Program-made: the position numbers and the translations under genes
Origin: Acidobacteriota bacterium
Lineage (GTDB): Bacteria; Acidobacteriota; Terriglobia; Acidiferrales; UBA7541
Length of the DNA: 39,803 nt
Reading direction: 5' to 3'
NCBI GenBank assembly: GCA_003223295.1
Contig: QHYM01000322.1
Span: 1 to 39,803, forward strand
Shown here: positions 1,329 to 31,915 of the stretch, one piece after another
How positions within the stretch are numbered: the stretch's first letter is position 1
How the letters are laid out: the number at the start of each line of letters is the position of its first letter
The notes under the pieces: generated by a model
The model's input: only the letters and a program-made list of their open reading frames with translations
Database searches by the model: none
Told to the model about the DNA's origin: nothing

Positions 1329-2672
1329 TCAGGCGCCGATGGAGGAGCGCAGGGCGTTGGCGAGGGACTGGGTGAAGCGCTGGACATCGGCTTCGTGTTC
1401 GGCTTCGACCATGACGCGGGCGAGCTGCTCGGTGCCGGAGTAGCGGAGCACGATGCGGCCGTTTTCACCGAGCGCGGATTGGGCTTCGGCGAGGGCGCGC
1501 GAAACTTCGGGGAGAGAATCGAGCGGGGGCTTCGAGCGCACCTTCACGTTGACGATTTGTTGCGGGTAATCCTTGAACCCTTCGACGAGTGACTCGATTT
1601 TTCCGTGCATGGAAACGAGTGAAGCGATCTTCACCGCGGTGAGCAGGCCGTCGCCCGCCGGGCTGTCATCGAGAAAGATGATGTGGCCGGACTGCTCGCC
1701 GCCGAGAACGTTGCCGCTGCGCAGCATCTCTTCGAGGACGTACCGGTCGCCGACGGCGGCGCGCGCCAACGTGATTTTTTCCTGGGCGAGGATTCGCTCG
1801 AGTCCAAGGTTGGACATGGATGTAGCGACCACGCGATTGCCCTTGAGCTTGTTTTGCGATTTCAGGAAGCGCGCGGCGGCGAGAAGCACGCCGTCCCCAT
1901 TGACGACTTTTCCGCTTTCGCAGACGAAAAGCGCGCGGTCGGCATCGCCGTCGAAGGCCACTCCGAGCCGCGCTTTTTCCGCCACTACGCGCTTCTGCAG
2001 CCCCTCCAAATGAAGAGAACCACAGCCCGCGTTGATGTTGCGGCCGTCCGGTGAAACGCCGATCGCCACGACATCCGCTCCGAGCGAACGAAACAACTCT
2101 GGGCTCAGTCTGTAGGCTGCGCCGTTCGCGCAGTCGAGAACGATGCGAAAGCCGCGCAGCTTGGCCCCGGGAATCAACTTTTTCCGGAGGAATTCCAAGT
2201 ATTCAGCATCGAGGGATTCATCAGCAGTGAGGTGGGGTGCGTTTTTCGGGGCTGATTCGCCGCGGTGCCCGAAAATGTCAGCCTCTAGTTCTTCCTCGAT
2301 ATCGTCAGGGAATTTCATGCCCGCGTGCGAAAAAAGCTTCACGCCATTGTCTTGAAACGGATTGTGCGAAGCGGAAATCACGACGCCGGCCTGAAAGTCG
2401 TTCTGGCGCACCAGGCAAGCGACGCCGGGGGTAGTAATGACTCCCGCGAAGGCCACCGTTGCGCCGGCTTGCGTGAGCCCTGCGGCGAGAAGAGAAGCGA
2501 TGTGCGGGCCGGACTCGCGCGTGTCCATGCCGATCAGAACATGCGCTGCGCCATGCTTGCGCTTCAAGTAGCCGCCGAGGGAGCGCCCCGTGGCATAGAG
2601 TGTGGCGTCATCGAGCGGCGGCGTGCCGGGGGTACCGCGAATGCCGTCGGTTCCGAAGAGCTCTTTGGCCAT
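1329..2672 (-). CDS. glmM: Phosphoglucosamine mutase
   Basis: Cytoplasmic enzyme that converts glucosamine-6-phosphate to glucosamine-1-phosphate on the way to UDP-GlcNAc for peptidoglycan and lipid A. The 447-residue length matches the family. GTDGIRG lies at residues 7-13. The phosphoserine loop SASHNP is at 100-105, with the catalytic serine at 102 as in E. coli GlmM. The metal loop DGDADR is at 241-246 and the sugar loop GGEQSGH at 324-330. The phosphate-binding loop is at 410-421. It reads RYSGTEQLARVM, where the usual sequence has SGTEP, a small substitution that should not abolish function. The distance from the ATG to GTDGIRG is normal, which supports this start, although no strong ribosome site precedes it. 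The gene stands alone between a divergent permease and the downstream sigma-factor unit. Confidence 0.96.
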   Translation of the reverse strand: MAKELFGTDGIRGTPGTPPLDDATLYATGRSLGGYLKRKHGAAHVLIGMDTRESGPHIASLLAAGLTQAGATVAFAGVITTPGVACLVRQNDFQAGVVISASHNPFQDNGVKLFSHAGMKFPDDIEEELEADIFGHRGESAPKNAPHLTADESLDAEYLEFLRKKLIPGAKLRGFRIVLDCANGAAYRLSPELFRSLGADVVAIGVSPDGRNINAGCGSLHLEGLQKRVVAEKARLGVAFDGDADRALFVCESGKVVNGDGVLLAAARFLKSQNKLKGNRVVATSMSNLGLERILAQEKITLARAAVGDRYVLEEMLRSGNVLGGEQSGHIIFLDDSPAGDGLLTAVKIASLVSMHGKIESLVEGFKDYPQQIVNVKVRSKPPLDSLPEVSRALAEAQSALGENGRIVLRYSGTEQLARVMVEAEHEADVQRFTQSLANALRSSIGA

Positions 2673-2800
2673 GCAAGAGAGACCGGTTCTTCAAGGGCCG
2701 CAGCAGCGAAAAGGGTAGCAGCAGCGGCTTTCATCCGTGAGGACAACTTCGAAAGTTTAACACAGGGAAAGCGACCGTTTGAATCCGCGGCGGCACGTGT

Positions 2801-2816
2801 CTCTTTCATGAAAGAG
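2801..2816. promoter_or_regulatory. Perfect 16-bp palindrome between glmM and the permease gene
   Basis: CTCTTTCATGAAAGAG reads identically on both strands. It lies in the 255-bp divergent gap between glmM (minus) and the AI-2E-family gene (plus), about 130 bp from glmM and 110 bp from the permease. A dimeric regulator site is plausible, but no regulator gene is adjacent and no second copy was noticed. The rest of the gap holds no recognisable gene. Confidence 0.35.
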
Positions 2817-2927
2817 CGCGCGGTCTGGATTTGTAGACGGTACGAAGAACGCGGCATCGAAAGAATTAAGTACCCCACCCCAATAGGGTTTGCGGGAATG
2901 TGCTAACTTGTACGGCCGGAGCCGCTC

Positions 2928-3986
2928 GTGTCCGCCACCCAGACGCCACCATCGATCGTCCGATTTACCAGCTCCAGCTTCAGCATGCGGGTGATTGCCG
3001 CTGCGATCATCTTGCTGTTCTTCTATTACGCCGCTGGTGTGGTGATTACGCTGCTGTTTTCCATTCTTCTGGCGTACTTTCTCGATCCCGCTGTGGAGTT
3101 TCTGGAAAAATTCAGGCTCCCGCGAACCCTGGGCGCTATGGTGATGGTGCTGCTCGTCATCGCTGTTATGGCGGCGGTCGGTTACGGCCTTTGGACGCGA
3201 GTTGCGGATTTTGCCGACGACTGGCCTAAGTACAGGGCTCTTTTGCAGCACGTGGTGACAGCCGTGCAGAGCAGAATACAGGGAATCGACGGTAACGTTT
3301 CACAAATGGCGCCAACTGCAGGAGCCCCCTCCGCCTCGCCTGCCCCTGTGGATCCGAGCGTCGTGCGCACGCTGATCGGCTCCCTGTCTGCGCTGCTCCT
3401 GGAAGTCACGTTCATGCCCTTCCTGGTCTTCTTCATGCTTGCGGAAAAGAGACAGGTCTGGCACGGCACGCTCCAGCTTTTTCCGGCTTCGAGACGCACC
3501 CAGGTCAAGGAGACGCTGGAAGATGTTCGCGATGTGCTGCGGGACTACCTTGCAGGCATGACGGTGGTGACCCTGCTGGTCATGGCGGCGAGCAGCCTGT
3601 TTTTCTGGTCGTTAGGGATGGAGTTTCCGGTTTTGACGGGCATTGTCTCGGGCTTGCTCAACATGGTGCCTTACATGGGGGCAGTGCTGGCGTGGCTTCC
3701 GGCCTTCATGATTGCGCTGGCCAAATGGACCACCGTTGGCCAGTTTGCGTTGATCGCGACCGTGCTCGTCACGATCCACGTGCTGGCGTTGAATCTGGTG
3801 GCGCCAAAATTGGTAGGGCGGCGGGTACGGCTGAACGCCGTTGCGATTACCATTTCGCTGCTTTTCTGGGGCTGGGTGTGGGGAGGAATGGGCCTGGTTC
3901 TGGCAATTCCTATCACGGCAACCCTGCGGGTGATTTGCGACCACACGGAATCGTGGAAGCCAATCGGGCGGTGGTTGAGCGACTGA
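2928..3986 (+). CDS. AI-2E family transporter (putative permease)
   Basis: A 352-residue integral membrane protein of the AI-2E/PerM-type exporter family. Hydrophobic segments lie at about residues 21-52, 66-88, 150-172, 210-230, 233-265, 270-292 and 305-332. The long soluble stretch between segments three and four (about 90-150) is normal for the family. It contains an Ala/Pro-rich insert near 128-142 (APTAGAPSASPAPVDP). The family signature NMVPYMGAVL is at 245-254, followed by VAPKLVGRRVRLNAV at 291-305. The start is a GTG with CGGAG seven bases upstream. Members have been linked to autoinducer export, Na+/H+ exchange or simply unknown substrates, so the substrate here cannot be named. The S1/P1 nuclease gene follows after 57 bases. 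Confidence 0.9.
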   Translation: MSATQTPPSIVRFTSSSFSMRVIAAAIILLFFYYAAGVVITLLFSILLAYFLDPAVEFLEKFRLPRTLGAMVMVLLVIAVMAAVGYGLWTRVADFADDWPKYRALLQHVVTAVQSRIQGIDGNVSQMAPTAGAPSASPAPVDPSVVRTLIGSLSALLLEVTFMPFLVFFMLAEKRQVWHGTLQLFPASRRTQVKETLEDVRDVLRDYLAGMTVVTLLVMAASSLFFWSLGMEFPVLTGIVSGLLNMVPYMGAVLAWLPAFMIALAKWTTVGQFALIATVLVTIHVLALNLVAPKLVGRRVRLNAVAITISLLFWGWVWGGMGLVLAIPITATLRVICDHTESWKPIGRWLSD

Positions 3987-20119: not shown

Positions 20120-23100
20120 TTAATTTCCGGCGACCGCCGCGGGTTTGGGCGGAGCTTTTGGAGCTTGCGGGGACGGCGGTGCTTCGGGCTCGACGCCTCG
20201 CCACCCAACGGGGCGGCCGCGCACAGCTTCCTTCACCGAGCGGAAAAGCACCACGTACATCAATTGGCGGTAATAGAAGCGCTGCAGGAGGACGGGAACG
20301 AGCAAAGTCCAGTCTTCTTTGCGCTCCAGGGCGAAAGCCAGAACACACGTGAATATGTCGATAAGCAGGAAGCCGATGAAGAAGAACATCGAGCGCAACA
20401 AGTCTCCCGTGCTGGCGTGAATAGTGGGCAGCCAGGAGAGTTGCAGCTTTTCGAGGGCCCAGAGCCCAACGGACCACAGGAACAACAAATCGATCAGCGG
20501 GGAGATGAGTGGGAGCACCAGTTGAAACACAAAAATGTTCGGCAGGGCAATCCAACCGAGCGTGCCGTACTTCAGCCGGAACAACGTGCTGCTGTGCTTC
20601 CAAAAGGATTGCAGGGTGCCGAAGGTCCAGCGGAACCGCTGGCGAATGAGCTGGCCCGGCGTTTCCGGCGCCTCCGTCCAGGCGAAGGCCTCCTCGTCGT
20701 AACTGATGCGCCAGCCCAGCCGGCGAATCGCAATGGTGAGGTCGGCGTCCTCCGCGACGGTATCTGCGGTGATTCCGCCGGCGGCTTCAATCGCTTGCTT
20801 GCGCCAGGCGCCGAGAGCGCCGGGGACGACGGTAATGCAGTTCAGAAGGTCGAAGGCACGCTTTTCCATGTTCTGGCTGGTGATGTACTCGAGCGCCTGC
20901 CAGCGCGTCAGCCAGCGCGACCGGTTGCCGACTTTGACGTTGCCCGCCACTGCGCCCACGGTGGGGTCCACGAAATGGCGGACCAACTTGCGGATGGCAT
21001 CGGGCTCGATTTCCGTGTCCGCGTCGATGGTCACCACAATTTCGGTCTCCGCCTGTGACATTGCCACATTCAGCGCCGCTGCTTTCCCGCGGTTCACTTG
21101 GTGAATGATGCGCACCCGCGGTTCACGCGAAAAATGAGCGTCCAGCAGCTCGCCGGTTTTGTCCGTGGAGCCGTCGTTCACGATGATGATGTGCAGATCG
21201 GGATAATCCGACTCGAGGACCGAATTCATCGTTTGGACGATGACGCTTTCCTCGTTGTGCGCGGGAATCAGCACGGTCACGCCGGGAAGCGACCCGCGAA
21301 TCTCCGGACGGTCCGGGCGCAGCTTCTCGATGAGGGCCAGAACGCCAATGATGAGAGTGCGGCCGCTGACGAGAATAATGCCCAAAATAAATGTGGTCGT
21401 GATCAGCACCCAGAACCAGTGGTAAATCCCGAAAATGAAGCCGTTGGCGCGAGCTTCAAATTGTTCCTCCGGGGAAAGCGGCAACATCACCTGAGCGCGC
21501 GTTCTGCCAAGCAGGTCGGGCACGGAGACAAATTCGTACCTCTCCGCGCGAAGCGCGTCGATAAGCTGCGGGAGCGCGGCGACCGTTTGGCTGCGATCAC
21601 CGCCGCCATCGTGGAGGAGAATGATGTTGCCCTTGGGCGCTTCGTGCAAGACATTCTCGACAATTTTTGCGGCCGGCAGCGGGACACCAGGGCCAAGCTG
21701 GCTCCAATCGTCTGGATCCACTTTCTGGCCGATGATGATGTAGCCCATATCCTGGGCGATAGGCAGGTGCGCTACTTCTTCGGCAAAATCAGGCTGATGG
21801 TCGATGCCGTACGGCGGGCGGAAGAGCAAAGACTTCACGCCGAGAACACTCTCGATGAGCCGCTCGGTTAAGTTGAGTTCCCAGCGGATTTGCGTCGGGG
21901 AGAGGTTCGGATTTTCCCAATCCGGATGAGAATAGGTGTGGTTGCCGATTTCATGACCTTCCGCATATTCCTGGCGGAGAAGTTGTGGCCACCTGTTGGC
22001 ATCCCACCCGATGACGAAGAAGGTCGCAGGCACATTTTTCTGTTTGAGAATGTCCAGAACCTTGGGAGTCCAGGTCGGATCAGGGCCATCGTCGAAAGTA
22101 AGCGCGAGCTTCCGGTTGGCGGCGCCGATCTGGTCGATATGGTACGACAGAGGATAGGCGTCGTATTTTTCGGAGGTAATGAGGTCCGCAGAGGAATCAT
22201 AAGTAAAGGTACGGTGACCGCGCTTCGGAGTATCGAGGAAGTGCCATATATCTCCATCCCCTTCCAGGATCAAGTCCGGCCCTGGCGGTAGGTCCTCCAA
22301 TTTCTGGCGCACGCTGTCATCCGGGCGGGTTGCGTCCCAGATCGGCCAAATGGAAGTATCGGAGGAACCGAGGCGCCAAAGGGCCGTGCCCTGCACTCCC
22401 ATGCGCTCGCTCGCGCGCAGTTCGTTGTAGGTGGTTACGGCATCGAGCATCCACACCTGATGCACATGATCGTGCTCGTCGTAATAGGAATAATGCGGAT
22501 TCAGAGAAGCAGAGTCGAATTCCACTTGAGTCTCGGACTCAAAGGCGTGAAGAAGAGCTTCCTGGATCGTGAATGACTGCGGCAGTTCGTGTGATTTCTT
22601 CGGATCTTCCGACCAGTCGTAGGCATAGCTGGCAACGGCGACGATGAGTTTCCGCGGAGGCACGTCTTTCATCACTTCGCGGAGGTTGTCAACGTACCAA
22701 TCCTGAGAGGCAATGGGGCCGGGCGTCGAAGTCAGCCAGTGCTCGTCGTAGTTCATCAGCAGGATGGCGTCGCACTGATTGCCGAAGAATTCATAATCGT
22801 AGGCGTCGTCGTGCGCGGGGAGCGAGATCATCAGCTTCAGGCCCGCGGAATGCAGAGCAGGCCCCAGCTCCGAAGCAAACTGCCGGAAGTGCACTTGGCT
22901 CGTGTCGGGAACGTCTACGAAGTCCACCACGATGCCGGCCTCGTGAGATTCCCTGGCGAACTCGACGACGTTACGCACCAGGTTCTGGCGCGCCGCGGCG
23001 TCGGCCAGCATTCTTACCATTTCTTCGACGCGCCACCGAAGGCCATCGTAATTGTTCAACAAGCCCATCATGGGGAGTTCGACGGGAGGATTTAGGGTCT

Positions 23101-23593
23101 TGATCCATTGATGCAGCTTGTCTTTCTTAAGCAGGGCCAAGCCTTCGGCCGGAGTGGCGCTGACGCTTGTCTGGCCGTGCTCGTAGTCTACGAAGGTCAA
23201 ACCGCCTTCGGGCGTAACTGCGTGCAATTGCTCCGGGATGAGGAGGTCGATCTCGCGATAGTGTTTTTTCAGAGAGGCCAGGCTGTTGGGGTCCCAACTG
23301 ACATAAAACGCCGCGCGCAACGGATCGTAGCTTGCAGGCACGGTTCCGAGGTTGGCTATACGCTGGCGCCGCCCTTCCCGCGGAGGAAGAGGCTTCTTTT
23401 TTGGCTTAAACGCGTGATAACCCGGTTTTGTATCCGGGAGCAGCCCCGCGGGCAAATCGACGCTGACGGCGATAGTCACAAAAAAATATGCCAGCAACGC
23501 GGTGAGAAGTGCTCCGGTGAGCTCCAGCACATGGCGCGTGTGGCGCCAGCGGACGCGCTCCGCGTCGTAGAATATCGGCCTTCGTTCTTTCAT
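20120..23593 (-). CDS. Three-domain polysaccharide enzyme: GH18-like, polysaccharide deacetylase (CE4) and GT2 glycosyltransferase
   Basis: A 1157-residue membrane protein. A membrane anchor lies at about 22-46. A GH18-like barrel spans about 90-430. A NodB-type deacetylase spans about 494-700: TFDDGPD 499-505, with metal ligands Asp502, His552 and His556 in HTYSH, then RPPYG 592-596 and LLHDGG 659-664. A membrane segment follows at about 716-752. The GT2 domain spans about 770-1000: PAHNEE 777-782, VNDGSTDKT 805-813, DAD 857-859, EDAD 948-951 and the QRFRW motif 985-989 of processive synthases. Further membrane helices lead to a Pro/Ala-rich tail. The GT2 part resembles chitin/PNAG-type synthases, so it may both polymerise and deacetylate a GlcNAc polymer; the product is inference. 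The GH18 motif reads GIVVDFVDVPD, where a catalytic Glu is expected at 226 (see findings). The divergent GT-C gene starts 99 bp away. Confidence 0.92.
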   Translation of the reverse strand: MKERRPIFYDAERVRWRHTRHVLELTGALLTALLAYFFVTIAVSVDLPAGLLPDTKPGYHAFKPKKKPLPPREGRRQRIANLGTVPASYDPLRAAFYVSWDPNSLASLKKHYREIDLLIPEQLHAVTPEGGLTFVDYEHGQTSVSATPAEGLALLKKDKLHQWIKTLNPPVELPMMGLLNNYDGLRWRVEEMVRMLADAAARQNLVRNVVEFARESHEAGIVVDFVDVPDTSQVHFRQFASELGPALHSAGLKLMISLPAHDDAYDYEFFGNQCDAILLMNYDEHWLTSTPGPIASQDWYVDNLREVMKDVPPRKLIVAVASYAYDWSEDPKKSHELPQSFTIQEALLHAFESETQVEFDSASLNPHYSYYDEHDHVHQVWMLDAVTTYNELRASERMGVQGTALWRLGSSDTSIWPIWDATRPDDSVRQKLEDLPPGPDLILEGDGDIWHFLDTPKRGHRTFTYDSSADLITSEKYDAYPLSYHIDQIGAANRKLALTFDDGPDPTWTPKVLDILKQKNVPATFFVIGWDANRWPQLLRQEYAEGHEIGNHTYSHPDWENPNLSPTQIRWELNLTERLIESVLGVKSLLFRPPYGIDHQPDFAEEVAHLPIAQDMGYIIIGQKVDPDDWSQLGPGVPLPAAKIVENVLHEAPKGNIILLHDGGGDRSQTVAALPQLIDALRAERYEFVSVPDLLGRTRAQVMLPLSPEEQFEARANGFIFGIYHWFWVLITTTFILGIILVSGRTLIIGVLALIEKLRPDRPEIRGSLPGVTVLIPAHNEESVIVQTMNSVLESDYPDLHIIIVNDGSTDKTGELLDAHFSREPRVRIIHQVNRGKAAALNVAMSQAETEIVVTIDADTEIEPDAIRKLVRHFVDPTVGAVAGNVKVGNRSRWLTRWQALEYITSQNMEKRAFDLLNCITVVPGALGAWRKQAIEAAGGITADTVAEDADLTIAIRRLGWRISYDEEAFAWTEAPETPGQLIRQRFRWTFGTLQSFWKHSSTLFRLKYGTLGWIALPNIFVFQLVLPLISPLIDLLFLWSVGLWALEKLQLSWLPTIHASTGDLLRSMFFFIGFLLIDIFTCVLAFALERKEDWTLLVPVLLQRFYYRQLMYVVLFRSVKEAVRGRPVGWRGVEPEAPPSPQAPKAPPKPAAVAGN

Positions 23594-25204: not shown

Positions 25205-26626
25205 TTACTTTTCACTCGACGGCTCGGGGTGAATCGTGACGCGATAGATTTGTTGAAACTTTTCTTTCACGCGGTCTTCCAGTGCGGCGGTTACATCATG
25301 AACTTGCGTGATGGGCAGTTCGCTCTTCATGGTGCAATGACAGGAGACCAGGATGTGGTGCTCCACTTTTCTCACCAGGACGTCGTGGCAATTCACCAAT
25401 TCATCGAACTCCGCCGGCAGTCGGTTCAGGAAGTTCTCGATGGCCTTGGCAAGCTGGTTCATTTCCCCGATGCCCGCGTCGGGCGTAGCGATGTGCCGCC
25501 CCAGCGGCTCAATGTGAATGTTCACGTCAACCGCTCCGTCGCGCAGTTCGCGGATGTTGTCTTCCAAGTCGCTGGCCTGGCGATGGGCCTCGCGCAGGCT
25601 CAAATTCTCATCCACTTCCAGATGCAGTTCGATGAACAGACGGCCATTCTGTTGCGACGCGTGCAAATCGTGAATCGCCAGCCCCATGCGCTGCGCCGCT
25701 GCGCGAATCGCTTCAAAGAGATGCTCGCCAGCGGGCGCGCGCGGTTCCACGTGCACCATCACGTCGGAAGGAACAATTTCGCCGATGCGCTTCTCGATGG
25801 CATCGGTCAGCGTGTGCACCTGCTCGAGGCTCGCGGTGCGCGCCACGCTGACGGTCGCATCCACGAAATGACGGTTGCCCGCGCGCCGGACTCGCACCCG
25901 CTCCACGTCCAACACGCCATCCATGCGTTCGAGCGTCCGAGCGATTTCCCTTTGCAATCCCTGCGGGGCCGCGTCGAGGAGCGCGTCCAGCGTGCGGCGG
26001 CCAAGTTGCGAGCCAACCCACAAAATCACGGCTGCCACGGCCAGGCCCGCGAGCGCGTCCGCGTAGACCAGCCAAGGCAGTTTCCAGGTCTCGCCGGCCC
26101 ACACGAGCCCAATTCCGGCAATGACCACGATCGTGCTCCACACGTCGGTCGAAAAATGCAGCGCGTCAGCCTCCAGCGCTTCGCTGGAGTATTTCCTGGC
26201 TGCATGTCCGAGAGTCCGCGCGCGTGTCAGGTCGATGGTGAGCGCGCAGAGAAGCACGAAGATCGCCGTCACGCTCGGTTGGATATGCACGCTGTGGAAA
26301 AACAGCCGGTCGAACGCCTCATAAATGATGTAAAGGGCGGTCAGCGCGAGCAAACCGGTTTCCACGAAGGCGGAAAAATTCTCGAACTTTCCGTGACCGT
26401 ACGGGTGGCGCTCGTCGGCCGGTTGATCCGACACTCGAACTGAGAGAAAGGTGATGATGGCGGCAATTAAATCCAGGCCGGAGTGTAAGGCTTCGGAAAG
26501 CACGCCCAAGCTTCCCGTTCTTACGACCAGAAAACCCTTCAGGGAAACCAGGAGCAAAGCCGAGCCTACACTCAAAAGCGCAGCGCGCTTCTTCTCCCGC
26601 ACTTCGATTGGGGCGACCATTTCCAT
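25205..26626 (-). CDS. Cation diffusion facilitator (CDF) metal exporter with extended cytoplasmic tail
   Basis: Proton-driven exporter of Zn2+ or similar divalent metals in the inner membrane. Six membrane segments cover about residues 14-205. The transport-site residues are His48 and Asp52 (ALHSGLD) in helix 2 and His157 and Asp161 (LHFSTD) in helix 5. The helix 2 pair is His-Asp rather than Asp-Asp, which is common in zinc- and cadmium-type members. HPYGHGK (74-80) is the conserved loop after helix 2. The cytoplasmic dimerisation domain is at about 210-300. It is followed by roughly 170 further residues that look like repeated dimerisation-type folds, including the His-rich NCHDVLVRKVEHHILVSCHC near 420-440. 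That makes 473 residues against about 300 for the basic family. The start has no strong ribosome site. Confidence 0.93.
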   Translation of the reverse strand: MEMVAPIEVREKKRAALLSVGSALLLVSLKGFLVVRTGSLGVLSEALHSGLDLIAAIITFLSVRVSDQPADERHPYGHGKFENFSAFVETGLLALTALYIIYEAFDRLFFHSVHIQPSVTAIFVLLCALTIDLTRARTLGHAARKYSSEALEADALHFSTDVWSTIVVIAGIGLVWAGETWKLPWLVYADALAGLAVAAVILWVGSQLGRRTLDALLDAAPQGLQREIARTLERMDGVLDVERVRVRRAGNRHFVDATVSVARTASLEQVHTLTDAIEKRIGEIVPSDVMVHVEPRAPAGEHLFEAIRAAAQRMGLAIHDLHASQQNGRLFIELHLEVDENLSLREAHRQASDLEDNIRELRDGAVDVNIHIEPLGRHIATPDAGIGEMNQLAKAIENFLNRLPAEFDELVNCHDVLVRKVEHHILVSCHCTMKSELPITQVHDVTAALEDRVKEKFQQIYRVTIHPEPSSEK

Positions 26627-26696: not shown

Positions 26697-28541
26697 TTAT
26701 TTGGATGCAGTCATCGGTGGTGGTGGCAAGAGCGGGAGCCGCTTGGCCTCCGCCCGTTCGCCGCGCACTTCCACCTCTTCGAAGAAGAGCGAAGGCGCCA
26801 CGACCGAGGCAGGCAAGCCCACTTGTGCCGATCCAAAAGCGCTAAGCGCTGTGCCTGCGAAGCCGTTCGCCTGGCTTTGCATATAGTTGTAAACAAAATT
26901 GTCTCTGCCGATCCCGGCGATGTTCCGCAAGGCGCGCGTGTTCAGGCCGATGATACGCGCTCCCCGAATCACTTCCTCGCGCCCGCTATCGGGATAAATG
27001 CGATAGACCACCAGCGGCAACCGGTCCCCGGTGCCGGCGCCGCCGCCGAAACTTCCCAGCAGTTCCGAAAAATCGTCCTGGTGGAGCAGGCTCAGCGCAG
27101 GATTGTCCATCTCTCGCACGACCAGGCAATACTCGCGTTCGGACTTCTTTTCCGCGCGGCAGGCGTCCAGAAATTTCTTCTTCAAATCCGCGGGAGAAAG
27201 AGTTTCGCTGGAAGAAAAGACCAGGTTGCTCATCGTGGGCTTGGCATCGTTCAGGAACGCGGCGCGGCCGTGACCGTTAGACTGCTCGAAATCCGGCCCC
27301 GGGCGGCGGGACATCAGTTCGCCCTTCATGGCGCCGTTTTCCACGAGCGTGACTTTCTGCCCTCGAACGCCTTCGTCGTCCACGCTGTATCCGCCGACGA
27401 GCGGCGTGCCCTTGAACTCTTTGGCTCCCGGGTCATCCACCAGCGTCACGGTTGATGGCAAAACGCGCGCACCCAACCGCCCGACCCAGTCACTCTTTCC
27501 TCCCAGTCCCGTCAGCATCTGTTCCAGCACTGGGCTGAAGGAAATCGGCGGCCGCGCACCGTTGACCGCCGGGCTCAGCACCTGCGCGAGGAGCGGCGCA
27601 GCCGCCCGCGCTTCAAAAAGCACGGGGCCGGTGTAATCCTGGGCAGGCGGAGCCGAGCGCAGCGCCATTAATTCCGTGCAAGCGACGTTCAGACCCTTGC
27701 GCACCATCTCAACGTTCGGCAAGTCCGCCGGGCGCACCGCGTAGGTTGCGTAATAATGATTCACCGGGACGCCATCGTCGGCCACCGCATTCATGCCCGC
27801 TTCGATGGCAGCAAAACGCCGGTTCTGGCGGATTTCCGTCCCTTCGCTAGTCAGCAGATACTCCGTTGCATAGACCAGGTAATAGCTCACGCGCGATTCG
27901 TGAATCTGAGAAAACGCACGCATCACTGCGGAAGTGTCGCGTGCTTCTTGTTCCCAATTGCGGCCCGTCCAATCGGGCGTTTCCAGCGGCTCGATGAGCT
28001 GCGCCGGCTCCGCCTTCGAAAAATCATCGATATCCGATTGCCGCGCTAGGCTGCTCAGGTAACCCTTCTTCCTCGAGTAAGTGTCCACCGCTTCCTTGAA
28101 CGCTTGGTCCGTGGCGATCCACAGGTCCTGGCGCAGCGAATCGTAATCGCGGTCGATGCCCACGGAGCCGGTCGGGCCGATAAAGCCGCGGAAGGCATCG
28201 TCGCTCACGAAATTGGAGCTATCCAGCTTGTAGCTCCCTACGCGCGCTGCAACGTTCATGAAGCGGTTTCGCGTGTGTATGCTGGAGAGCAGCGTGCCGA
28301 ATTCCGTCACAATTTCACGCACGTCTAGGTCGAGCAACCTGTACTCAACGTAAAACGGGCGAACGGGTTGATCCGTATTGGGAATTTTCAATTCCAGCCG
28401 CGACTTCGACCGCGCCATCTCATCGCGCATCGCTTGCAGAGTGTGGTCGTTATCCTGTTGAGCCAGGGCAACGTCCGCCTTCGCCCAGCTCAACGCTGCC
28501 AAAAGAAACGCCACCGCCGCAATTCTTCCCCCGCCCCTCAC
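26697..28541 (-). CDS. Exported TldE/PmbA-like protein lacking the zinc site
   Basis: A 614-residue protein of the TldD/PmbA (modulator of DNA gyrase) family with an N-terminal signal peptide (hydrophobic core about 8-20, cleavage after DVALA). It resembles its neighbour over the whole length. However, where the neighbour has the zinc-binding HEVFGH, this protein reads LFEARAAAPLLAQVL and has no HExxxH, as known for TldE relative to TldD in E. coli. It ends in a proline-rich tail (LPLLPPPP). The GTG start overlaps the neighbour's stop by four bases (GTGA) and has GGAGG seven bases upstream. A heterodimer with the product of 28538-30301 is the natural expectation. The signal peptide would place the complex outside the cytoplasm, unlike classical TldD/TldE. 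Confidence 0.88.
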   Translation of the reverse strand: MRGGGRIAAVAFLLAALSWAKADVALAQQDNDHTLQAMRDEMARSKSRLELKIPNTDQPVRPFYVEYRLLDLDVREIVTEFGTLLSSIHTRNRFMNVAARVGSYKLDSSNFVSDDAFRGFIGPTGSVGIDRDYDSLRQDLWIATDQAFKEAVDTYSRKKGYLSSLARQSDIDDFSKAEPAQLIEPLETPDWTGRNWEQEARDTSAVMRAFSQIHESRVSYYLVYATEYLLTSEGTEIRQNRRFAAIEAGMNAVADDGVPVNHYYATYAVRPADLPNVEMVRKGLNVACTELMALRSAPPAQDYTGPVLFEARAAAPLLAQVLSPAVNGARPPISFSPVLEQMLTGLGGKSDWVGRLGARVLPSTVTLVDDPGAKEFKGTPLVGGYSVDDEGVRGQKVTLVENGAMKGELMSRRPGPDFEQSNGHGRAAFLNDAKPTMSNLVFSSSETLSPADLKKKFLDACRAEKKSEREYCLVVREMDNPALSLLHQDDFSELLGSFGGGAGTGDRLPLVVYRIYPDSGREEVIRGARIIGLNTRALRNIAGIGRDNFVYNYMQSQANGFAGTALSAFGSAQVGLPASVVAPSLFFEEVEVRGERAEAKRLPLLPPPPMTASK

Positions 28542-30301
28542 TGCCGGCCTCCCGTCTTGACCACATCGTGAGCAGGCGGCGGCAGAATCGGCGGCCGGTC
28601 CGTCGAACTCTCTTTCTTTTGCACTTCCAACTCCGAGGTGAGGATCGCGGGCGAAGCGGCTGCCACCGGGACAGATCCGGATTCCGCGCCGCAGTACCCG
28701 TTGAACACTTCCGGCGTGTCGCCGGTCGCAACAATCTTGGTCAGAGCTGCCAGCGGCGTGCCGACGATATCCACTCCGCGCACCAGTTCGTCAGGCCTGC
28801 CGTCGGCGTAGACTCTGTAAACCACGAGCGGCTGTACTTGAAAGGCCTGCGGTTGTCCCCGCCCGGTGAAGGTAAATCCGCCGGCGATATCGTCAATCAG
28901 CAGGCCATACAGCTTGCCTTGAGCCTTGATCAGTTCGATCAATTTCGCGCGAAGCTGCGCGTTGGTCATCGTTTTACTGCTTTGCACGATCAAGTTTCCT
29001 TGCCGAGAAACAGGTGTGGCGCCAAGCTGCCTTCGGCCGTGTCCATTCGAATGCGGAAAGCCCACCAGCGGCGACCGCGACATCTCGAAATTCTTCAGCA
29101 CGCCATGATCTACCAGCGCAACGCGCTGCGCGGGCACGCCCTCATCATCGAACTGGTAGTAGCCCAGCAAATCCTGCACTCCCAGCTTCTTCATCGTGGT
29201 GTCGTCGGTGATGCTCAGAAAATCGGGCAGGATCTGCTCCCCCACTTTCTTCGAAAACGTCTGGCCTTCGGTCACATCTTTCTGCCGGTGCCCTTCCGCG
29301 CGATGGCCGAACACTTCGTGGAAAAAGACCGCCGCCGCCCGCCCGGTCAGAAGCGCCGGGCCCACCGCCGGATCGTTGATTGGTGCCTTGACCAGGCCTT
29401 CCAGCTCCTTGCGCATGGTCGCTTCCGCGGCATACACCGCCTTGTCGTCGGGCGTCTCCTTCGGATCCACCCAGTCGAAGTTGTAATAACGGTCGATGTC
29501 CATCCCATCCGGTGCTTTGCCCTGAATAAAAAGCTCCAACCGGTACCGAATCTGCCCGAATTGTAGCTGCGTGCCTTCGCTGTTCACTTGAAACACGTTT
29601 TGCGCCTGCGCGCTGAACGTCACGATGGAATTGATGATCGCCGCCGATTCGCGAAAAGCTTTCGTATAGGCGCGTACTCTCGCTTCCCAGGGCGTGCGAT
29701 CCACGGCGATGGAAGCCTGCTGCCCAATGTACGTGTGCGGCTGTTCGCGCGAAAAGTCCGGCGCGTTGCCCTCCGCTGTTTCTACCTTCACTTCTTTCCC
29801 CGTCTTGATCTTGATCAGCGCCTGTTCGGCAGCGCGGTATTGCTTGTCCGTTTCGAGCCAGATGGCGCGCCTCAACACTTCAGCGTCGTCGTCTAAAGGT
29901 ACGGACACTCCCGGACTCGCGCTCTGCATTTGCCGTTCGCCCACTTTGTGCGTGTCGTCCAGCGTATAGGATCCCGTGCGAACCGAGACTTCCAGCCAGC
30001 GGTTCCGCGATTCACTGCTGTTCAGCAATGCGCCGTTCGAGCCGGACACATCCGCTCTCTGCGTGTCAGTGATCGTATAGCCCAGAAAATACGCCGGCGT
30101 TTCTTGGGAGTTCAATGCTTTCATCGAGCGCTCCAACTCCGCTTGCAACGCCGCGAGTAACGGAGAGCGCTTGGCCTGCGCATCGGGAGGAGCGCCGTAC
30201 GCTTTCGGCGCAAGAATGAGGGCCAAGCCTGGAAGCAAAACAAGCGCAAAAAGGAGGGGAATCAACCTACCGCGATTCGAATTGATCAAAGGATGCCTCA
30301 C
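28538..30301 (-). CDS. Exported TldD-like zinc metallopeptidase
   Basis: A 587-residue TldD-family protein with a signal peptide (hydrophobic core about 13-31, cleavage near APKAYGA). The zinc motif HEVFGH is at 328-333, in the family context GRAAAVFFHEVFGHRAEGHR. Downstream conserved parts include YYQFDDEGVPAQ, MSRSPLVGFPHSNGHGR and the C-terminal GVDIVGTPLAAL. The tail is proline-rich (RPPILPPPAHD). Known TldD/TldE pairs form a cytoplasmic heterodimeric protease that trims unfolded peptides such as microcin B17 precursor; here the substrate is unknown. The GTG at 30301 precedes the signal peptide. An in-frame TTG at 30289, with GAGG six bases upstream, is a possible alternative. It is the first gene of the pair, translationally coupled to the TldE-like gene. 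Confidence 0.9.
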   Translation of the reverse strand: MRHPLINSNRGRLIPLLFALVLLPGLALILAPKAYGAPPDAQAKRSPLLAALQAELERSMKALNSQETPAYFLGYTITDTQRADVSGSNGALLNSSESRNRWLEVSVRTGSYTLDDTHKVGERQMQSASPGVSVPLDDDAEVLRRAIWLETDKQYRAAEQALIKIKTGKEVKVETAEGNAPDFSREQPHTYIGQQASIAVDRTPWEARVRAYTKAFRESAAIINSIVTFSAQAQNVFQVNSEGTQLQFGQIRYRLELFIQGKAPDGMDIDRYYNFDWVDPKETPDDKAVYAAEATMRKELEGLVKAPINDPAVGPALLTGRAAAVFFHEVFGHRAEGHRQKDVTEGQTFSKKVGEQILPDFLSITDDTTMKKLGVQDLLGYYQFDDEGVPAQRVALVDHGVLKNFEMSRSPLVGFPHSNGHGRRQLGATPVSRQGNLIVQSSKTMTNAQLRAKLIELIKAQGKLYGLLIDDIAGGFTFTGRGQPQAFQVQPLVVYRVYADGRPDELVRGVDIVGTPLAALTKIVATGDTPEVFNGYCGAESGSVPVAAASPAILTSELEVQKKESSTDRPPILPPPAHDVVKTGGRQ

Positions 30302-31525: not shown

Positions 31526-31915
31526 ATGAAAGGCTTGGCCATCATTCTTGTGTCCGTCGGCATTCTCTATGGCGCTTTCCACTACTATTTCCAGAAGATG
31601 CCCACCACCGATGAGGGCACCGCTCCGACGCAGGCCATCACCCTGACCGGCGTCCGCGGCGATTTGCTGCAAATCGCTCAGGCGGAACTCGCCTATATCG
31701 CCTTGAACAGCCGTTGTGTTTCGTTGGACGAGCTGGTTACCTCGAATTCCCTCTCTTTGCCAAGCACCGGGCGCGATGGATACTTTTACTCGATCGAGTG
31801 CTCCGGCGTGGAGTTCAAGGCGACAGCGCGGCATGCGCCTGCGCCAGCGGATTCTCCCATCCGGTATCCCCATCTCGCCATCGACACGAACCTGCAGATC
31901 ACGGAAATTCCTTAG
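31526..31915 (+). CDS. Membrane-anchored small protein, pilin-like overall shape, unknown function
   Basis: 129 residues: an N-terminal hydrophobic helix (LAIILVSVGILYGAFHYYF, 4-22) followed by a soluble domain. That domain contains LLQIAQAELAYIALNSRCVSLDELVTS and GRDGYFYSIECSGVEFKATA. The two cysteines (about 64 and 92) could pair. The helix-then-helical-repeat-then-beta layout, and the phrase about a residue-rich loop before GYFY, recall acidobacterial pilin-like secreted proteins, but there is no prepilin peptidase motif, so this is only a resemblance. No strong ribosome site is visible. It precedes the TonB-dependent receptor on the same strand with a gap of about 190 bases and is divergent from the FecR-domain gene. 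Confidence 0.7.
   Translation: MKGLAIILVSVGILYGAFHYYFQKMPTTDEGTAPTQAITLTGVRGDLLQIAQAELAYIALNSRCVSLDELVTSNSLSLPSTGRDGYFYSIECSGVEFKATARHAPAPADSPIRYPHLAIDTNLQITEIP

Follow-up and report, generated by a model that had tools for sequence, protein, structure and literature searches.

TldD and TldE form a two-subunit peptidase of the cytoplasm. The E. coli complex, classified as MEROPS M103 (PMC10885120), is a hollow heterodimer that trims unfolded N-termini, and the metal is held by TldD residues His262, His267 and Cys454 with Glu263 acting as the acid–base catalyst (PMC5810440). The gene pair described here lies in the 39,803-nucleotide contig QHYM01000322.1 of an Acidobacteriota bacterium (assembly GCA_003223295.1), the whole of which is referred to as the window; it is contig C44 of a 6.03 Mb assembly comprising 481 contigs. 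Handles beginning with G, C and L denote genomes, contigs and loci, respectively. The two genes encode a predicted TldD-type metallopeptidase subunit, D, and a catalytically dead paralogue, E, both with N-termini that resemble signal peptides. It is likely that the exported TldD branch evolved a live/dead pair of its own: after duplication of a TldD-like ancestor, one of the copies would have lost its metal site, in parallel to the cytoplasmic TldD/TldE, and the outcome would be a periplasmic "pencil sharpener" present in nearly all members of one acidobacterial family. The pair and its parts are located as follows.

28538–30301, minus strand: D, predicted exported TldD-type metallopeptidase subunit (587 amino acids, GTG start)
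26697–28541, minus strand: E, predicted exported, catalytically dead paralogue of D (614 amino acids, GTG start)
30194–30301, minus strand: N-terminal signal-peptide-like segment of D (residues 1–36; candidate cleavage after AYG; crude hydropathy score 2.76)
28461–28541, minus strand: N-terminal signal-peptide-like segment of E (residues ~1–27 by eye; crude hydropathy score 2.59)
29303–29320, minus strand: HEVFGH metal motif of D (residues 328–333; equivalent of TldD His262/Glu263/His267)
28691–28693, minus strand: Cys537 of D, predicted third metal ligand (equivalent of TldD Cys454)
28574–28597, minus strand: proline-rich tail of D, RPPILPPP
26715–26738, minus strand: proline-rich tail of E, LPLLPPPP

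Results

Domains, metal site and predicted fold

The only TldD domain that Pfam recognizes in both proteins is the third, PF19289, which scores 102.2 bits in D and 69.5 bits in E against a cut-off of 22. The canonical first domain, PF01523, is matched by neither D nor E at an expectation value (E-value) of 0.001, and D misses the cut-offs of the NCBIfam TldD equivalogs NF008006 (51.4 of 513 bits) and NF040952 (70 of 635 bits). By sequence, D aligns with E. coli TldD (PDB accession number 5nj5) over D residues 312–559 with an E-value of 1.1e-13. The match of E to TldD is weak, the best E-value being 0.0046; at an E-value of 0.1 the same search also lists 6j6a, a Thermococcus protein titled TldE (0.025), together with two unrelated xanthine dehydrogenases, and none of the PmbA chains 1vl4, 3qtd, 3tv9 and 1vpb.

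The metal site is confined to D. His328, Glu329 and His333 are invariant in all 38 rows of an alignment of D relatives (alignment A1), and the position of Cys537 holds a cysteine in 37 of them, the remaining row being masked as X at that position. The exported D proteins used for tree building have the equivalents of His262, Glu263 and His267 in 20/20 cases and the cysteine in 19, with one masked. Neither metal-site histidine occurs in any of 17 E proteins, the E of the window has no HExxxH, and the third-ligand cysteine is present in 0 of the 13 E proteins readable at that column. The initial annotation, made from the sequence of the window, had assigned HEVFGH to only one member of the pair, and this holds for the whole site: D keeps HExxxH and the cysteine, and E is devoid of metal ligands.

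AlphaFold2 models of D and E were obtained with mean predicted local distance difference test (pLDDT) values of 85.5 and 84.7, respectively. VIA-align superposes the D model on TldD with a Z score of 37.5 over 446 aligned residues, versus Z scores of 25.4–29.6 for the TldE-type chains. Despite the lack of a PF01523 match, both models still align to TldD over the N-domain. As modelled, D and E thus share the TldD/TldE fold over nearly the whole chain.

The start codon of E falls within four bases shared with D, the upstream gene (28538–28541). This overlap, pointed out in the initial annotation, recurs with the start codon at the same four-base junction in 38 of 49 loci; four of the remaining 11 overlap by one base, and all three Bacteroidota loci are among the 11. 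The similar proline-rich tails recorded in the same annotation are likewise borne out by relatives, for a PILPPP-like motif lies within the last 45 residues of 46/50 related D and 38/44 related E proteins, and is missing from the three Bacteroidota loci. The tails of D and E are similarly placed, which suggests that the motif is older than the D/E split.

Descent of the inactive subunit

It has been suggested that TldE arose from TldD through loss of the active site (PMC10885120). E seems to have lost its active site separately. In a first tree of 63 proteins and 496 columns, the exported D and E proteins form a clade apart from canonical TldD and TldE with a support of 100/100; within the tree the supports are 100/95 for D, 98/88 for E and 100/99 for canonical TldE. 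Forcing E to group with TldE costs 156 log-likelihood units and is rejected by the approximately unbiased (AU) test with a p value of 4.5e-7. A second tree was built from the C-terminal domain alone, with the catalytic and clamp columns removed and seven rows omitted (L068, L071, L119, L094, L066, L051 and L104); among the D proteins, those of L052 and L051 have an unusual C-terminus (a frame change and masked X). The exported D and E proteins again group together with a support of 100/100, and the union of E with TldE is rejected with an AU p value of 3.8e-15. A clamp segment of at least 8 residues occurs in all 14 readable E proteins (three more are cut), versus one of seven readable TldE proteins (four more are cut). 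E is therefore not TldE by descent; it stems from a D-like ancestor. Of the initial view of a TldD/TldE-like pair, the fold and the pairing stand, and a TldE-like origin of the inactive member is not supported. The grouping of E with exported D, apart from canonical TldE, is most simply explained if the metal site was lost independently on two or more occasions, so that the TldD fold appears to have given rise to the pairing of an active with an inactive subunit at least twice.

Several observations nonetheless leave some room for E being TldE after all, in which case long branches, or gene conversion between D and E at an early stage, would have misled the trees. A long branch (1.91) leads to the exported clade, and long branches were flagged by the tree program. 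The second tree gives weak support (80/38) to E as a single group, and early gene conversion would be compatible with the tree tests made. A Foldseek search with the E model does not separate TldD from TldE: the TldE-type chain 1vl4 comes first (2.4e-25) and TldD second (3.8e-25), and the highest target-normalized template modelling (TM) score is that of P. aeruginosa PmbA (0.76), versus 0.73 for TldD. However, VIA-align ranks TldD over TldE for the same model, with a Z score of 32.0 over 437 residues versus 22.9–27.1 over 409–423 residues for the TldE-type chains, a comparison in which the longer TldD chains favour TldD. The grouping with TldE is moreover rejected by both trees, including the one that lacks the catalytic columns, the N-domain and the seven rows, and the clamp segment sets the readable E proteins apart from the readable TldE proteins. 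Descent of E from TldE is accordingly quite improbable, and origin from a D-like ancestor is retained.

Distribution and pairing

The relatives of D (53 loci) come mostly from acidobacterial metagenome-assembled genomes (gp2, Candidatus Acidiferrales). The genome of the window (G000) has PF19289 genes on contigs C44, C265, C209 and C407, and PF01523 on C407 alone. The exported pairs on the first three contigs are named type I (C44), type II (C265, locus L064) and type III (C209, locus L065, in which D is cut by the contig start). The canonical TldD gene on C407 (L066, about 2370–3660) appears to be split over two frames of 252 and 279 amino acids, through a frameshift, decay or an assembly error.

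A search with alignment A1 matched 93 of the 95 genomes of the order; the matches in six genomes outside the family of the window are weak, with a best E-value of 3.1e-13. Type-I rows were assigned by score, and among the matches listed for the 89 genomes of the family, type-I D is present in at least 81, E in at least 82, and the two are adjacent on the same strand in at least 77, with the pair spanning all 13 genera. The co-occurrence of the two genes in related genomes, on which the initial annotation had in part staked its proposal, is thus seen. Among the same matches, type-I D lacks an adjacent E in four of 81 genomes (G014, G011, G043 and G039). These four are compatible with contig breaks, since D itself is cut in G014, the E piece starts at base 1 of another contig in G011 and G043, and the match in G039 shares its contig number and coordinates with L038, in which the contig ends within E. 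G067, where a broken D lies close to a partial E, was counted on neither side. The two genomes of the family that gave no match have completeness values of 59% and 55%. Adjacency in 77 of 81 genomes among the matches listed, combined with the PF19289 match of both proteins, argues that the pairing of D and E is not due to chance.

Outside the family, a sample of 60 genomes of the phylum contains matches above 250 bits in seven, and the other 53 never exceed 74.8 bits. PF01523 proteins were found in 31 of these 60 genomes, and G118 and G144 have an exported pair without PF01523. In the order of a Bacteroidota relative (59 genomes) the only strong match is the central genome itself. Fourteen chosen genomes include ten with D and E, three with D alone and one with neither. 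The exported pair is hence near-universal in one family and patchy elsewhere.

Signal-like N-termini

Export was assessed with a crude score rather than SignalP, namely a mean hydropathy of at least 1.8 over 12 residues near the N-terminus with the best start chosen, so that starts were picked to favour a signal in every group scored, exported and canonical alike. Among proteins of at least 540 amino acids, 50/50 related D and 43/44 related E pass, in agreement with the signal peptides originally noted on both members of the pair. The lone E below the threshold (1.50) belongs to L065, the C209 pair of the window's own genome. Canonical relatives scored in the same way pass in 4/24 cases on the TldD side and 0/18 on the TldE side. 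These counts are not independent, as close relatives dominate the exported set and overlapping loci may count a few canonical genes twice. In the distant loci L053–L061 all nine D and all seven E proteins pass. The first candidate cleavage site that the script reports in the signal-like segment of E is SWA, at residue 20. From these N-termini we infer that D and E are exported by Sec.

N-termini resembling twin-arginine translocation (Tat) signals, of RRxF type, occur on TldD-side proteins of PF01523 type in Acidobacteriota (L067, L075, L078, L079, L085, L087, L110 and L112). The neighbouring TldE starts without a signal in the loci looked at (L111, L112 and L113), which suggests a possible hitch-hiker export of the folded dimer.

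Genomic neighbourhood

The flanks of the 53 loci, of three stretches from the window's own genome and of the window were clustered using open reading frames (ORFs) of at least 60 amino acids, crude calls that include false ORFs on the opposite strand. The commonest neighbours in these 57 stretches are a cation diffusion facilitator (CDF) gene (31), a FecR gene (18) and a 514-residue protein without a Pfam match (17). In many relatives the type-I order is a FecR-domain gene, then the pair, then the CDF cation transporter, which in the window is located as follows.

25205–26626, minus strand: CDF cation efflux gene (PF01545 and PF16916), 70 bases downstream of E; a neighbour that is no part of the system claimed

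None of these three neighbours is seen in the distant loci L053–L061. A role of the CDF protein as metal supplier of D was considered and rejected, as the link is not seen in those loci. The CDF transporter of the window has 473 amino acids with three ZT_dimer matches and exceeds in length the NCBIfam CDF models that it matches (282–319 positions).

No shared gene for an exported precursor or substrate was found in the flanks, ORFs below 60 amino acids and unlinked genes not having been examined, and a Pfam scan of 28 flanking proteins and five window neighbours also revealed no shared precursor. The remark in the initial annotation that the substrate is not evident nearby thus extends to the flanks of the related loci, for ORFs of at least 60 amino acids. 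Some loci have M1 peptidase, M16 peptidase or MsrB (SelR) genes as neighbours.

Other genes were observed near the exported pairs. A single 1157-residue protein with GH18, polysaccharide deacetylase and GT2 domains is encoded at 20120–23593 of the window, a 129-residue ORF at 31526–31915 has a hydrophobic N-terminus and matches no Pfam domain, and after the third exported pair (L065) comes a gene with a Fic domain (G000:C209, 2621–3682).

Discussion

D and E probably constitute an exported heterodimeric shell peptidase that trims unfolded peptides in the periplasm. Computation provided the predicted fold of each subunit, the metal-site residues, the pairing and the origin of E from a D-like ancestor; export, dimer formation, activity and substrate belong to the interpretation. 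D and E would be co-translated and exported by Sec, and outside the cytoplasm they would assemble into a hollow heterodimer built like that of E. coli TldD/E. D would bind zinc or iron via two histidines and one cysteine and would cut by the thermolysin-like route proposed for TldD, while E, as a dead copy of D, would close the shell and make room for the peptide. Unfolded peptides would enter N-terminus first and be trimmed in short steps. The role is probably the clearing or scavenging of periplasmic peptides rather than the maturation of one precursor; such a general role is favoured because no shared linked substrate was found, several pairs occur per genome, and M1, M16 or MsrB neighbours are present at some loci.

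A number of points weigh against this proposal. Model confidence is low in the proline-rich tails and at both N-termini, metal loading outside the cytoplasm is an assumption of the model, and the peptidase and MsrB genes near the pair are confined to certain lineages and could reflect mere synteny. D and E of G145 are found on separate contigs. D occurs without E in two Nitrospinota (L059 and L060; genomes G160 and G161) and in G127 of the window's phylum (L104), and the D-like proteins of these three loci take basal positions in the D group; that of L104, which is outside the scored sets, has no signal-like start by the crude score. Because D occurs without E in G160, G161 and G127, D may act as a homodimer in some lineages.

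The pair could instead mature one dedicated exported peptide, a precursor of the type of ribosomally synthesized and post-translationally modified peptides (RiPPs) or a signalling precursor, whose gene would lie elsewhere in the genome. The modified precursors that E. coli TldD/E trims come from gene clusters that do not encode TldD/E (PMC10885120), and several paralogous pairs per genome could mean several substrates. However, no small exported gene tracks the pair across lineages among flanking ORFs of at least 60 amino acids (unlinked genes were not searched), and the presence of the pair in every genus of the family, among the matches listed, is more like that of a housekeeping function. 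A dedicated substrate is therefore considered unlikely.

Another alternative is that the exported pairs dispose of N-terminal fragments, such as signal-peptide remnants or N-terminal peptides, that arise from protein synthesis and export. The type-II pair comes after aroC, def and fmt (gene order aroC-def-fmt-D-E) in 9/9 same-genus loci including the window genome's own (L064, L153–L157 and L160–L162), and a PASTA gene comes next in 7/9. However, Def and Fmt act in the cytoplasm. In addition, aroC, def and fmt have no match in four loci outside the genus taken as type II (L158 and L159, assigned by score; L163 and L164, by tree) or in five loci taken as type III (L148–L152), and the neighbours of type I are different. 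In L154, fmt and D are about 2 kb apart, and synteny within one genus may simply be inherited. Disposal of such fragments thus has a rather low probability.

That D and E are not peptidases, D being a deacylase or a binding protein with the same metal site, would accord with a review whose title names N-deacetylases in the TldD family (Vobruba 2022) and is very doubtful, since D keeps every metal ligand of the peptidase as well as its catalytic Glu. The exported shell peptidase is thus retained as the proposed function.

Comparison with known systems

No apparent description of an exported TldD/E clade was found in the literature searched, which covered titles and abstract openings and left most subscription journals outside. 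If the proposal is correct, this further, independent instance would turn the pairing of live and dead subunits into a repeated outcome of the TldD fold and would offer a way to test what makes the dead half necessary. A peptidase with a closed shell would also be placed outside the cytoplasm, encoded among the near-core genes of little-studied soil bacteria.

Among Acidobacteriota, the TldD proteins of the canonical clade with Tat-signal-like starts share the exported look of D and E. They differ in their RRxF-type starts, in being of PF01523 type and in the neighbouring TldE, which lacks a signal (L111, L112 and L113). The TldE/PmbA-type structures (1vl4, 3qtd, 3tv9, 1vpb and 6j6a) resemble E in overall fold and in the lack of a metal site, whereas E has a clamp-like segment that is missing from six of the seven readable TldE proteins and fits TldD better by VIA-align, although not by Foldseek. 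E. coli TldD/TldE (5nj5) is similar to D/E in the predicted fold of both subunits and in the HExxxH motif and remote cysteine carried by one of the two partners. Unlike E. coli TldD/TldE, D and E have signal-like N-termini, a proline-rich C-terminal extension and an N-domain that PF01523 does not recognize, and their inactive subunit groups with the exported active subunit rather than with TldE.

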